Assembly (NCBI GenBank): GCA_937995595.1
Contig: CALKJW010000009.1
Coordinates: forward strand, 1-64,000
Length of the DNA: 64,000 nt
From: an uncultured Phycisphaerales bacterium
GTDB taxonomy: Bacteria; Planctomycetota; Phycisphaerae; Phycisphaerales; UBA1924
Reading direction: 5' to 3'
This document shows positions 20,892 to 26,357 of this stretch, piece after piece. Position 1 is the stretch's first letter, and every line of letters starts with the position of its first letter. A program made the position numbers and the translations under genes. The notes below the pieces were generated by a model. It saw only the letters and a list, made by a program, of their open reading frames with translations. It made no database searches and was not told where the DNA came from.

Positions 20892-22238
20892 CTACTTCTT
20901 CGGCCGCGCCTCCAGCGGCAGCGGCGGGCTCCAGTCGGCGCGGGCGATGCCCGGCGCGGGCCAGCCCCACGTGTTGCCGTGCCTGTCCGCCCTGCCCGTG
21001 AAGTGCCGCACGATCAACCGGTGCAGCATGTCCATGTTCGGCAGGATGCCGTGGAACCCCGACGCGGCGGAGAGCACGCGGTCGCCCACTTCCCAGTAAC
21101 TGTAATCGTCGGGCGTGACGCACACGACGCACCGCTCCGGCAGGAACGCCGGCAGCGCGCCCTCGAACGGCACCGTGCCGTCGCCGGTCAGCCGCCACTC
21201 CGCCGCGGGCCGCTTGGCGTCGCGCCAGTGGTTCACGCGGTCGTCCGACGCAAGGTCAAAGTCCGGCGTCGCGGCGGTGCCGCCGATCCTGAGCCGCACG
21301 CGCGTCTTGGACCCCACGCCCACCACGCACAGCCAGTCCTCGGGCTTGAGGCCGGCGTCCGACAGTTTGAACGACTCGATGCGGTCGCGGTGCGCCTCGG
21401 CCGCGCCGAGCAGGCTCTTGAACAACTCGCGCGCCTGCTCGGCCCGGTCCTTCGATTCCAGCCCGTGCAGGCGCACGAACTCGGTCAGCGTCCGCACCAC
21501 GCCCGGCTGCCACGCCGCGGGGTCGTAGAGCGAACCGGGCACGCCCGCGGGCGACTGCGAGATCGCGCCCTTGAACCGCGGCAGGAGGTGGTACAGCGCG
21601 GGCGTGAGGCGGGCCGCCTCGCGGTCGCGAGAACTGGCGTCGGGCTGGCCGAGGTTCGCCGTGCCCGCGGCGATCTTCAGCACCGCTTCGAACGAGCCGC
21701 GGTACGGCGTCGCAAGCGTCGCCACCTTGCCGACGCGCGCCTTCCTGCCCAGCCGCTGCAGGCACCCCGTGATGACCATGCCGCCCATCGAGTGGCCGAC
21801 AAGGTCGACGCGGGGTGAGTGGGCCCAGCCCTCGGCAACGTAATGTCGCATCAACTTCGTCCGCTGGATCACCTCGTCGATGAACTCGGCCAGCGCGGCC
21901 TCGATTGAGTCCAGCGGCTGGCGCCAGTCGTAGCCGAAGGGATACACCGGCGCCGGCCGGTCCTCCCTCTCGCGCAGGTTGTAGCGGAGTTCTTCGATCA
22001 ACTCCCGGTACGCGACCTCGAAGACCTGGTCGGCCCGCACGCGCGCGGGCTGGGCCAGTTCGTACCACGCGCCGCGCGGGCTGTCCTTCATGATGTCCGG
22101 GTTGTCCGGGTGCAGCGTCGCGCGGCGGTAGTCCCTGGTCATCACGCTCCACACGACCTCCGGCGGGAGCGCGTACTCGTCGCGCAGGTACGTCGCGGTG
22201 ATGCCGGGGACGACGACGACGGGGTTGGCAAGGGGCAC
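20892..22238 (-). CDS. LCAT-like alpha/beta hydrolase (putative lipase/acyltransferase)
   Basis: A 448-residue protein of the lecithin:cholesterol acyltransferase-like alpha/beta-hydrolase group. VVVVPGITATYLR forms the first strand and oxyanion region, YPFGYDWRQ is typical of the group, Ser150 in LVGHSMGG is the nucleophile, and GDGTVPF and a late His (SGFHG) can supply Asp and His. No signal peptide is visible. GTG 22238 has GGAG 6 bases upstream and starts 21 bases after the stop of the 66-residue gene, so it is probably the last gene of the YEATS-like cluster. It would cleave lipid or ester bonds. The substrate is unknown. Confidence 0.75.
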   Translation of the reverse strand: MPLANPVVVVPGITATYLRDEYALPPEVVWSVMTRDYRRATLHPDNPDIMKDSPRGAWYELAQPARVRADQVFEVAYRELIEELRYNLREREDRPAPVYPFGYDWRQPLDSIEAALAEFIDEVIQRTKLMRHYVAEGWAHSPRVDLVGHSMGGMVITGCLQRLGRKARVGKVATLATPYRGSFEAVLKIAAGTANLGQPDASSRDREAARLTPALYHLLPRFKGAISQSPAGVPGSLYDPAAWQPGVVRTLTEFVRLHGLESKDRAEQARELFKSLLGAAEAHRDRIESFKLSDAGLKPEDWLCVVGVGSKTRVRLRIGGTAATPDFDLASDDRVNHWRDAKRPAAEWRLTGDGTVPFEGALPAFLPERCVVCVTPDDYSYWEVGDRVLSAASGFHGILPNMDMLHRLIVRHFTGRADRHGNTWGWPAPGIARADWSPPLPLEARPKK

Positions 22239-22485: not shown

Positions 22486-23517
22486 CTACTGTGCGCTCCG
22501 TGTCCCGAGCACGTACTCGATGACCCGGCGCACCTCGGGCATGCCGTTGACCAGTCTTGCCAGCCTCTCCTGGAGCCGATGCTGCTCCCGGAGGAGGCCT
22601 GTGATCTCGTCGGCTGACACCGACCGCGCTTCCGCTCCGCCGCCCTCCATCTGCACCGCCCTTTCAAGTTTGGCGGCTCGATGGAGCGTCGCGATCGAGA
22701 GCTCGATCTTGCTTGCGCAGTTCGCGAGGTCCGCAAAGTCCGCAAACGTCAAGGACTCCCCGCTCGGGCGGTACTCGCTTGTCTTGATGGCGGCGGGCTC
22801 GCTGTCAAGATCATCATTGAACACGATCAGCGGCACCGCCGGCGGCGGCACAGACTGTGATGCTCGGTTGAGCCGATCGCGCAACTCCTTGGCTCGATCG
22901 TCTGAGAGGGCCATGTCCTCCAAGGCCCGTGTGATGTGTACGAGCGCGGCGATTCGGTGTCGTGCCTCAGCCTCGCCTGCCGAGCGCTCCGAGAGGACTT
23001 TGGCCGTTTCGGCATCGCTCGCCATCAACGCCACGGCCGCCCTCGAACGGACGGCCTGCCTGCCGACCGCCAGCCGCTGGTACACCTCCACGCGCCCGCC
23101 CTGCTCCTTGATCGATTGCTTCCCGTAGCCGCCCACCTGGATCTCCGCCAGCACTTCGGGCGTGTGACTCGGGTCGTTGTGCTCGATGCACTTGAGTGTG
23201 TCGAGGCGGCCGTCCCGGTTCGTCGTGCCCGCCGCGTCCTTGTTGTCCGCATCGTTCACCACCCGCTTGCTCGTCGGCACCAGGAAGAACTCGTGGCGGA
23301 AGAACCCCGCCTTCAACTCGTACATCTGCGTCTGCGCGTTCTGCGCCAACGACAGGCCGATGGCCGACTGCGTCGTCGCCAGCACGTTCTCCCGGAGCAA
23401 CTTCGTAGAGCACCCCGCGCACGCCGCCGGCGCGACCGCCAACAGCACAACCACGCCACGCCCCATGGCGCGTCGTGGCGTGCCGCAATTCCCGCCCCGC
23501 TCACCTCCGCCCGTCAT
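22486..23517 (-). CDS. Probable lipoprotein of the YEATS-like cluster
   Basis: A 343-residue protein. Its ATG 23517 overlaps the previous TGA (ATGA), so it is coupled. A hydrophobic segment (VVVLLAVAPAACAGC) ends in a lipobox-like Cys near residue 36. The segment after it (VLATTQSAIGLSLAQNAQTQ, MYELKAGFFRHEFFLVPT) looks like a conserved beta-strand region of a surface lipoprotein. The C-terminal half is mostly helical, with the likely coiled stretch EQHRLQERLARLVNG. No family named with confidence. Confidence 0.65.
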   Translation of the reverse strand: MTGGGERGGNCGTPRRAMGRGVVVLLAVAPAACAGCSTKLLRENVLATTQSAIGLSLAQNAQTQMYELKAGFFRHEFFLVPTSKRVVNDADNKDAAGTTNRDGRLDTLKCIEHNDPSHTPEVLAEIQVGGYGKQSIKEQGGRVEVYQRLAVGRQAVRSRAAVALMASDAETAKVLSERSAGEAEARHRIAALVHITRALEDMALSDDRAKELRDRLNRASQSVPPPAVPLIVFNDDLDSEPAAIKTSEYRPSGESLTFADFADLANCASKIELSIATLHRAAKLERAVQMEGGGAEARSVSADEITGLLREQHRLQERLARLVNGMPEVRRVIEYVLGTRSAQ

Positions 23518-23967: not shown

Positions 23968-25185
23968 TCACTGCTCCCTGAAGCGCTTGGGCGCCTCCGC
24001 CAGTTCCGAAAGGTCCAACTCCAGCGGCGTCTGCCCGACGATCGCGCCGACGGTGAACGCGCCCCAGGCCAGCAGTTCCAGGCGCGCGACGCCCCTGTGC
24101 ACGCGCACCTCCTGCACCGGCGCGCCGAACGTCGGGTGCAGGTGGAAGGTCACCCTGTCGGGCATCGGCGACTCGCCGCGCGTCGAGCGCACTTCGAGCA
24201 CCACGTCGTAGAAGTCCGGCAGTTTGTCGGACTCGGTAACGCTCGCCGAAAGCGCGTACCCGTCGCGCTCGGCCAGCCCGCCGAACCTGCCCTTGTTCGG
24301 GTCGTCGGTGCTGAAGGGCGCCGGCTGACCGGCCTGATCGCTCGCCGGCGCCCCGTGTTCGGCCGACGCGACCGCGGCGGCCGCGGGCGGGATCGCCGAC
24401 TCGGGCGCGACGTCCGGCTGGGGCGCGCGGATCTGCCCGAGCGCGATCTTCCGGATGATCTCGATCGCGGCCTCGGCCTCCTTCTCAGTCTGTTCGACCT
24501 TCTTCTCGGTTTGCTCCACCTTGACGCTGAGACCGGCCGCGGCGGTCACCTGCCGCTCGACGCGCTCGACGCGTTCGGCCAGTGACAACTCCGCGCGGTG
24601 GAACGCGCCGGGAAGGTACGTCCGCGTGAGGGCGTATCCGAAGATGAACCCGACGACCGCGGAGTAGACGATCACCGCCAGCGCGAAACTCGCGGCCTGA
24701 CCGGAGCAGTGCGGGCCGCACATCGTTTCCGCCGCGGTCTGGGCCAGCGACCACACGCGGTCAGGCATGTTGCGGAGTTCGACGAGCCCCAAGCCGACGA
24801 GGATCTTGGTGACCCAGTCCGAGACCTGCTCCAGGTTCGTGTTGGGCTGCTGGATACGCGTGCCGCCCCTGGCGTTGTCCTTCGGACCGGCGCCGTTGTC
24901 GGCATCGGGCGACTGCCGACCCGCGCGCGGGATACCGAACAGGAAGCCCATGCCGAAGCCGCCGGCCAGCGACGCCAGCGCCCACACCAGCGCCCCGGCC
25001 CACGCGGCGCCGCCGATCAGCGCGCCGAACCAGATCGCGCCGGTGCAGCCGATGGCCGACGCGATCAGCCCGGAACAGAGCACGCGGTACACGTCGTGCC
25101 TGACCTGTTCCCATTGCGAATCGGCAGCACGCGGCACTTCGACTTGCTGCGCGTCGATCCGGCCCTTGTCCAAGACGATCGGCAT
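23968..25185 (-). CDS. Membrane protein with C-terminal prokaryotic YEATS-like (pYEATS) domain
   Basis: A 405-residue protein. ATG 25185 is preferred over GTG 25200 because GGGGAG sits 7 bases before it. Residues 35-87 are two membrane segments ending in GMGFLFGIPR. Residues 113-140 (TNLEQVSDWVTKILVGLGL) form a conserved amphipathic block. 165-187 is a third membrane segment, and 202-250 an acidic/basic coiled coil (VEQTEKKVEQTEKEAE). After an Ala/Pro linker, 297-405 is a beta-rich domain with YDVVLEV, MPDRVTFHLHPTF, LELLAWGAFTVGA and LDLSEL. This architecture matches the membrane-pYEATS proteins described in bacterial conflict-system surveys. The assignment is from memory of that pattern. 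Confidence 0.7.
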   Translation of the reverse strand: MPIVLDKGRIDAQQVEVPRAADSQWEQVRHDVYRVLCSGLIASAIGCTGAIWFGALIGGAAWAGALVWALASLAGGFGMGFLFGIPRAGRQSPDADNGAGPKDNARGGTRIQQPNTNLEQVSDWVTKILVGLGLVELRNMPDRVWSLAQTAAETMCGPHCSGQAASFALAVIVYSAVVGFIFGYALTRTYLPGAFHRAELSLAERVERVERQVTAAAGLSVKVEQTEKKVEQTEKEAEAAIEIIRKIALGQIRAPQPDVAPESAIPPAAAAVASAEHGAPASDQAGQPAPFSTDDPNKGRFGGLAERDGYALSASVTESDKLPDFYDVVLEVRSTRGESPMPDRVTFHLHPTFGAPVQEVRVHRGVARLELLAWGAFTVGAIVGQTPLELDLSELAEAPKRFREQ

Positions 25186-25427
25186 GCCGCTGCTCCCCAC
25201 GTGCTCGGCCCGCGGCGGACGCCGCGCCGCTCCGAACGCGACACACGGGCCACCAGCGACGCCGGTTCACCGACTCGCCGTGAGCATACAGGCCGGTGCA
25301 GCATTTGCAAGCCCGACTCGCACTGTTTCATCACAATCGCGGCGCACGATGTATCTAACATAGTTGCTGATTGCTCGGCCTTTTTTGTTGATATACACCC
25401 GGATGCGGTGCTACGCGCCGGCGTTGA

Positions 25428-25536
25428 GGCACAGATATGTGCCATGCCGGGCGTCGAACGCACAGAACTGTGTCCTTCGCCGCGTTTGTCGCACAGTTTT
25501 GTGCGGGACCGGCTCGCCTTGGCACACTATTGTGCG
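25428..25536. repeat. Four 16-bp palindromes phased at exactly 31 bp
   Basis: GGCACAGATATGTGCC (25428-25443), CGCACAGAACTGTGTC (25459-25474), CGCACAGTTTTGTGCG (25490-25505) and GGCACACTATTGTGCG (25521-25536). All have GCACA and TGTGY arms around a 4-base centre, and successive starts are 31 bp apart, close to three helical turns. The 15-bp spacers are unrelated. The array begins 6 bp after the lipB stop and lies about 240-350 bp upstream of the YEATS-like operon start. An operator for a dimeric regulator is the simplest reading. As RNA, each would form a short hairpin. Between 25186 and 25427 no gene is seen, only an AT-richer stretch near 25345-25395. Confidence 0.8.
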
Positions 25537-25541
25537 AGGGG

Positions 25542-26357
25542 TCATTCGCCCGCGGACTGCCGGGCTCGGCCGCGGACGGCGCACGTCGCCGCGCGGCGGT
25601 ACTCCAGCAGCGCGAGCAGATCGCCCGTCAGCGCGGCCTTCACGCTCGCCATGTCCGGGCACGAGTCGCCGAGTTCGTGCCGAAGGCTCGTCACCGGCCT
25701 GCCCGCCAGCCCGCACGGCACGATCAGGCCGAAATGATCGAGGTTTGTCGTCACGTTCAACGCCAATCCGTGCAGCGAGACCCACTTGCGGATGCGCACG
25801 CCCATCGCGCAGATCTTGGCCGGACCTGTGCCAACGAGCCGAGTGTCCGAGTTCTGCCCGGCCCCCCCGCCGCCCGCGGCGGACTTCTCACCTCGGCCAA
25901 CCCACACGCCCGTCGCGGTCGCGTCGCGCTCGCCGCGGATGCCGAACCGCGACAGCGTGTCGATCACCGCCTGCTCCAGCAACCGCATGTAGTCGTGCAG
26001 CCGCAGGCCGAAGCGGTTGAGATCGACGATCGGGTACACGACCAACTGCCCCGGCCCGTGATAGGTGATGTCGCCACCGCGGTCGGTCTCCGCGACTCGC
26101 ACGCCGCGGCGCGCGAGCAACTCGTCGCTAGCGAGCAGGTGGGCCCGCGCGCCGGGCCTGCGGCTGATGGTGATCACCGGCGGGTCGTGCTCGACCAGCA
26201 GGATGCGCGCGCCGGCTCCGCCCACCGCTTCGCGCTCGGCGAGCACGTCGGCGTGGTGCGCACACTGCACCTCGTACGCCGCGGCGTACTCCATGCGACC
26301 AAGATCGATCAGCGGGATCGGCACGACGGATCGTAGGTGCCGCGGGGCGCGGCTCAC
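25542..26357 (-). CDS. lipB: Octanoyl-[ACP]:protein N-octanoyltransferase
   Basis: A 271-residue LipB, which moves octanoyl groups from acyl carrier protein to lipoate-dependent enzymes, the first step of lipoate synthesis. RGGDITYHGPGQLVVYPI, the Lys in AKICAMGVR and the catalytic Cys in VPCGLAGRPVTSL are present. An extra Gly-rich stretch of about 24 residues separates GVWVGRG from the AKICAMG motif. No lipA is nearby. Its 3' end abuts the 31-bp palindrome array. Confidence 0.93.
   Translation of the reverse strand: MSRAPRHLRSVVPIPLIDLGRMEYAAAYEVQCAHHADVLAEREAVGGAGARILLVEHDPPVITISRRPGARAHLLASDELLARRGVRVAETDRGGDITYHGPGQLVVYPIVDLNRFGLRLHDYMRLLEQAVIDTLSRFGIRGERDATATGVWVGRGEKSAAGGGGAGQNSDTRLVGTGPAKICAMGVRIRKWVSLHGLALNVTTNLDHFGLIVPCGLAGRPVTSLRHELGDSCPDMASVKAALTGDLLALLEYRRAATCAVRGRARQSAGE

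Follow-up and report, generated by a model that had tools for sequence, protein, structure and literature searches.

The operators of phage 434 and its lambdoid relatives are 14-bp dyads set in steps of about two helical turns, with conserved outer arms and a variable centre; several stand in a row, and a dimeric protein of the HTH_3 type binds them cooperatively. The array described here shares the 14-bp dyads, the conserved arms around a variable centre, the row of several sites and, as predicted below, cooperative binding by a dimeric HTH_3-type protein. It differs in its arms (GCACA/TGTGC), in three-turn rather than about two-turn steps, and in a candidate regulator that is unlinked here and in which Pfam finds the helix-turn-helix only, with no peptidase domain. 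The box pairs of NrdR are a second class of tandem dyads set whole helical turns apart, with 15-16 or 25-26 bp between 16-bp boxes (PMC12051234). The array shares this whole-turn arrangement and differs in its sequence, in having up to four sites and in targets other than ribonucleotide reductase. As a kind, such an array is known; what looks new for this little-studied group of bacteria is the regulator, the regulon and a rule of two, three or four turns. Among the literature matches listed, none described a regulator or operator of this planctomycete family, nor the motif.

The array and its surroundings

The window, by which we mean the whole 64-kb stretch of DNA that was analysed, lies on contig C9 of a 3.1-Mb genome in 55 contigs (G000). 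It contains four 14-bp dyads of the form GCACA-N4-TGTGY, which start at 25429, 25460, 25491 and 25522, so that all three start-to-start steps are exactly 31 bp. The features of the locus are as follows.

25429..25442, no strand: site 1, GCACAGATATGTGC, exact match with perfect 5-bp arms
25460..25473, no strand: site 2, GCACAGAACTGTGT, arms pair at 4 of 5 positions; ends in TGTGT
25491..25504, no strand: site 3, GCACAGTTTTGTGC, dyad match
25522..25535, no strand: site 4, GCACACTATTGTGC, 6 bp from the lipB stop codon
25542..26357, minus strand: lipB, lipoyl ligase catalytic domain (PF21948); its 3' end adjoins the array
25305..25310, minus strand: putative -35 box TTGCAA of the pYEATS promoter, by eye and from the sister-species alignment
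25283..25288, minus strand: putative -10 box TATGCT of the same promoter, by eye and from the sister-species alignment
23968..25200, minus strand: pYEATS gene (PF20305, E 1.4e-14), the predicted first gene under control
22486..23517, minus strand: 343-aa gene behind pYEATS, no Pfam match; a gene of similar size occupies the corresponding position in the sister species
20892..22238, minus strand: LCAT-like alpha/beta hydrolase of 448 aa, third gene of the cluster; the sister species has a counterpart in the same position

A sequence-only reading had described four 16-bp palindromes at an exact 31-bp period, lying in no gene, 6 bp from lipB and with no candidate regulator gene beside them. The number of sites and the period are as described. 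The dyads are 14 bp long and start one base later; the outermost pair of the 16-mer matches in sites 1 and 3 only. All four sites carry the GCACA-N4-TGTGY arms that had been reported, and, strictly taken, all 14 bp are palindromic in three of them; site 2, with its imperfect arm pairing, is the exception. The array lies between lipB (minus strand, stop at 25542) and the pYEATS gene (25200-23968, minus strand), with 6 bp between site 4 and the lipB stop codon. Mechanical open reading frames cross it, and none of these was accepted as a gene. It is correct that no regulator gene lies beside the array; the best candidate is unlinked, on contig C42. The nearest site stands about 118 bp upstream of the putative pYEATS -35 box; the boxes TTGCAW-N16-TATGCT, seen by eye upstream of pYEATS in both species of the genus, are absent from the output of the promoter consensus scan. 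PADLOC assigned no defence model to the five proteins submitted. The pYEATS protein itself is nearly confined to the genus: it was found in 4 of the 121 searched genomes, in G013 and G058 by partial matches, and along most of its length in the sister species only.

Occurrence of the motif in the genome

Within the window, CACA-N4-TGTG occurs four times, always inside the array, against 0.54 in simulations, and not one of 400 first-order Markov simulations of the window contained a 31-bp pair. The genome-wide search proposed with the initial reading gave 11 forward matches to GCACA-N4-TGTGY, against 2 for a reversed-pattern control. When one mismatch was allowed, single sites in the window were not enriched (11 versus 8.0 expected), and the longer form TGCACA-N4-TGTGCA with one mismatch was not enriched in the genome (4 versus 6 for the control); the signal here is therefore one of exactness and phasing. 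In the sister species, G001, the longer form with one mismatch is enriched (26 versus 6 for the control).

Besides the array in the window, the genome holds two others, each a 20-bp pair. The motif is phased, and is not the unphased scatter that the first reading had named as counting against it. One, on contig C21, lies between an MscS gene and a gene for a 135-aa protein with a weak HARE-HTH match below the cut-off. The other, on contig C3, lies between convergent genes, mfd (TRCF domain) and a lactonase/peroxidase-like gene, and no obvious promoter was found at this pair, which speaks against the operator reading proposed below. The remaining places, on C10, C13, C23 and C45, are single sites within predicted open reading frames and may be due to chance.

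Conservation in the sister species

Comparison with related genomes had also been called for, with absence of the array from relatives that keep the cluster taken as evidence against an operator. G001, the one other genome of the genus and the only relative covered in this respect, keeps the array at the same lipB-[array]-pYEATS place, with three sites at 31-bp steps. Aligned with each other, the two arrays agree in 29 of 30 arm positions, in 5 of 12 positions of the N4 centres and in 9 of 34 spacer positions (29, 4 and 11, respectively, in an alternative alignment register). The step is 31 bp in both, and the spacers match about as often as chance would have it. A spacer that keeps its length but not its sequence is what proteins lined up along the helix would leave behind.

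The MscS-[pair]-HARE order is likewise common to the two genomes, with the pair 19 bp apart in G001. In both species the pair stands directly behind TTGC(A/G)(T/G)-N17-TAACAT (by eye), a position as for a putative repressor. A HARE-like gene is present in 77 of 121 genomes, and an array precedes a relative of it in another genus (G278). At 30 HARE loci, the tandem pair was found at 2, both in the genus itself (G000 and G001); a single CACA-N4-TGTG stands upstream of the gene in G005 (L204) and G020 (L220), and none at the remaining 26. The HARE protein was considered as its own regulator and rejected, given a gene in 77 of 121 genomes and a tandem pair in only these two species among the 30 loci.

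Spacing across the family

Among 400 sampled genomes of the order, 13 contain two copies of CACA-N4-TGTG at a fixed spacing of 31 bp. Every one of the 13 comes from the same family as the window; the reversed control gave none, and the sampled genomes of the other families lacked such a pair. Because the base outside CACA varies among genera (G, C, A or T), the core is taken to be CACA-N4-TGTG. When spacings from 14 to 44 bp were admitted, 49 pairs were recovered in 27 of 163 family genomes, against 1 genome for the control. Their spacings peak at 20 bp (5 pairs), 30-31 bp (25) and 41-42 bp (5); 4 of the 49, at 36 bp, are out of phase.

Ten pairs were dropped for a stricter count: the five of the window's own genome, one extra G001 pair and four presumed orthologs. 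In the pruned set, 15 of 39 pairs have the 31-bp spacing (binomial p 5e-13), and phasing at 10.5 bp never reached the same strength in 200,000 uniform draws (R 0.66, versus 0.69 for all 49 pairs). Since homologous pairs within genera (g51, g18) remain among the 39, each genus and spacing was also counted once, leaving out the window's genome; 8 of 30 are then at 31 bp (p 4e-6), with phasing at p 5e-5.

The dyads with conserved arms, the free centres and spacers and the whole-turn spacing, which are the sequence features of the operator class, are all found, and this is a real, conserved, helix-phased operator array. The first reading had proposed a dimeric regulator bound cooperatively to one face of the DNA, and the G001 array with its 31-bp steps and the helix-following spacings of the family fit that proposal. 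Together, the conserved array and these spacings lend support to predicted cooperative binding by a dimeric regulator, and the binder is very probably a helix-turn-helix protein.

A candidate regulator

The most likely candidate regulator is a small XRE protein of the phage 434 repressor type. Genes for small XRE proteins adjoin the arrays of G018, G026 and G056. XRE relatives were found in 50 of 61 genomes of the family, and among 40 genomes of other families there was one weak match (E 0.004); the family membership of 30 unlisted genomes in these counts was assigned by handle number. Apart from that weak match, arrays and XRE relatives are both confined to the family.

In an unbiased count of all 4-base dyads upstream of XRE genes, covering 57 of the 73 listed XRE places, two dyads came out on top among all W-Ng-W' types. 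CACA-N4-TGTG occurs at 7 loci where 0.2 would be expected; L053, which is among these 7, had been found via its own array. The other top dyad, CACA-N6-TGTG, is equally high (6 loci versus 0.11 expected) and is perhaps a second binding geometry. Within 300 bp upstream, the exact dyad is missing at 50 of the 57 loci. A count around 58 XRE loci gave 21 sites where 2.1 would be expected and where a control dyad gave 5; 11 of these 21 sites precede the start of the match by 80-157 bp. Four of these loci (L053, L055, L249 and L253) had been found via arrays; without them, 14 sites remain at 54 loci. From the side of the arrays, 34 of the 37 array loci outside the genus were taken in, all but those of G048, G356 and G050. 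Seven of the 34, including two orthologs, have an XRE homolog no more than 750 bp away, and the other 27 have no XRE gene nearby.

The window's genome encodes one XRE homolog, a protein of 216 aa on contig C42 (43.0-43.7 kb), unlinked to the array. Its HTH_3 match (PF01381) scores 23.6 bits against a cut-off of 23, and that of the G001 counterpart 26.5 bits. The best PDB match, and so the nearest solved structure, is phage 434 repressor, a weak match at E 0.015. E52, R55 and R56, in the region of the recognition helix, are invariant in seven aligned members. No such dyad stands at the C42 operon or at its G001 counterpart; the motif at the regulator's own gene is found at the level of the family and not in this genome, and the XRE assignment for the genus therefore rests on homology.

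The XRE proteins occur in at least two settings, and dyads were found in both. At 26 of 57 loci the XRE gene lies directly behind an open reading frame with RecG-type helicase motifs, confirmed as RecG by Pfam at one of the 26 (L281). In the second setting it lies behind a small gene whose product looks exported (by eye), and the window's genome has this second kind only, on C42. Small genes of this sort precede the XRE gene at L285 (5671-6117; the C42 locus of the window's genome), L253, L289 and L305-L307. The small product is possibly a partner or a signal.

Proposed mode of action

We read the array as a four-site operator at which helix-turn-helix dimers would bind cooperatively to control the pYEATS operon, with a 434-type XRE protein as the most likely binder, and give this reading a probability of roughly 0.6. 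One dimer would occupy each 14-bp dyad, and the 31-bp step, which is three turns, would bring the four dimers onto the same face of the helix, where they could bind cooperatively. Transcription of the pYEATS operon would then be controlled from about 120-225 bp upstream of the -35 box; this distance is large for a simple repressor and counts against the proposal. The most likely binder would be the 216-aa XRE protein from the unlinked C42 gene. The same protein would act at the 20-bp pair just behind the promoter of the HARE-like gene and at the 20-bp pair on C3.

A broader picture is more tentative, and we hold it with much less confidence: a family-specific planctomycete system in which XRE proteins linked to recG or to an exported partner act on strips of sites two, three or four turns apart and switch scattered genes, among them the pYEATS cluster and HARE-like DNA-binding genes. 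In the form with the exported partner, that partner or its product could be the signal. The predicted regulator, its recognition motif and the spacing rule together make a regulon testable and give a first hint of how the pYEATS cluster may be controlled. Spread over many genera, the rule of two, three or four turns also offers ready-made material for studying the cooperation of repressor dimers along DNA.

Alternative readings

The strongest alternative is that the array is a cooperative operator for some other dimeric helix-turn-helix protein of the genus; the XRE link in other genera would then reflect either a distinct regulator that uses the same half-site or a common target. We regard this as possible, at a little under half the weight of the XRE reading. 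It is favoured by the XRE operon of this genome, which has no dyad of its own, and the regulator families searched here were TetR and the XRE group only; in Actinobacteria, moreover, the same half-site adjoins TetR-like genes. Against it stands the enrichment of the dyad at XRE genes, seen across several genera of the family; TetR in particular is unlikely, because the sole match in this genome lies below the cut-off and reads as LexA-like.

TetR, suggested by the actinobacterial half-sites, was set aside as binder, since no TetR protein of this genome exceeds the cut-off. LexA was set aside as well, no dyad being seen by eye upstream of the lexA-like gene. The actinobacterial operators resemble the array in their half-site and in their tandem dyads, and they stand beside regulator genes; they differ in their steps of 27, 18 and 45 bp, and in that the window's genome has no TetR above the cut-off.

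In the genome scan, tandem TTGCACA-N4-TGTGCAA dyads 27 bp apart made up 45 of 133 pair matches, among the matches listed, and came mostly from Actinobacteria as far as titles were shown (L062, L079, L082, L091, L094, L118 and others). Six of eight such loci that were read adjoin TetR-like genes with a common 'RRTVYGHFPSR' helix, and these dyads probably serve self-regulation. A Coriobacteriaceae assembly, RUG11201, carries many near-identical inverted-repeat pieces around GCGGCACATCCGTGTGCG, several of them at contig ends (L058, L069, L088, L095, L122, L130 and others), which resemble a mobile or hairpin repeat.

To return to the window, the CACA core is shared with the DnaA box, which we take to be TTWTNCACA, and the array could on that ground be a row of inverted DnaA boxes serving titration or DnaA-dependent control. 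We consider this improbable. The half-sites of the sister species come near the box (7 of 18 within one mismatch, two of them exact), and those at XRE genes fit the 8-base form exactly in 4 of 28 cases, against about 1 expected; at one mismatch, however, the XRE-gene half-sites reach 9 of 28 against 25%, which is about chance, and in the window's genome none of 16 half-sites comes within one mismatch of that box. Nor was any dyad found near the main dnaA gene in the sequence fetched from four genomes. In both species of the genus that sequence contains one exact box, TTATGCACA. Each genome has a second DnaA_C match; the scan of the dnaA region covers the main gene.

Slightly less credible still, though raised at the outset, is a row of RNA hairpins in the 3' region of lipB, acting in processing, termination or as protein-binding RNA. 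Every dyad is able to fold, and the G001 segment is far more stable than its shuffles (z -5.81, 0 of 200 as good), but the array of the window is not so distinguished (z -1.57, 11 of 200 as good). The terminator scan returned a single site, which lies away from the dyads at 25366-25379 (plus strand); Rfam gave no match at the array, its sole listed match (E 2.9) lying elsewhere. The arms, moreover, are conserved as sequence, without the compensating changes of a paired RNA, and XRE genes too show an enrichment of the motif in their upstream regions.

NrdR boxes in tandem must likewise be separated by whole helical turns, but we consider it highly implausible that the sites are such boxes. The spacing rule would be the same, a gap of 15-16 bp giving 31-32 bp from start to start, and a gene with an NrdR-type ATP-cone lies on the same contig. 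The array sites nonetheless differ at 11-14 of 16 positions from the NrdR consensus, which we take to be ACACWATATATWGTGT, and CACA-N4-TGTG is absent from the ribonucleotide reductase loci fetched from four genomes, loci that may stop short of the reductase promoter. The only ATP-cone found in the genome is at G000:C9:71154-71411, in a 205-aa frame that is presumably NrdR, and the genome's own ribonucleotide reductase therefore seems to be without one.

Equally implausible is a replication or partition iteron set, the other alternative first offered, or a dispersed repeat ordered by accident: a 16-mer of the sister species, TGCACAAAACTGTGCA, does sit in a common repeat at three places, but the spacers are unrelated and the sites are dyads, arrays recur between genes at two syntenic positions in both species, and the sequence fetched around dnaA showed none. 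The dispersed repeat was rejected as holding for that one G001 16-mer only.

Of the three G001 places with the TGCACAAAACTGTGCA repeat (L184, L185 and L186), L185 and L186 share a few hundred bp and L184 begins at a contig end; one of the places corresponds to the peroxidase-like gene that flanks the C3 pair in the window's genome. On C19 of the same genome (L346, 3274-4302), about 1.4 kb behind dnaA, there is a CRISPR-like array with a repeat of about 35 bases and a 66-bp period.
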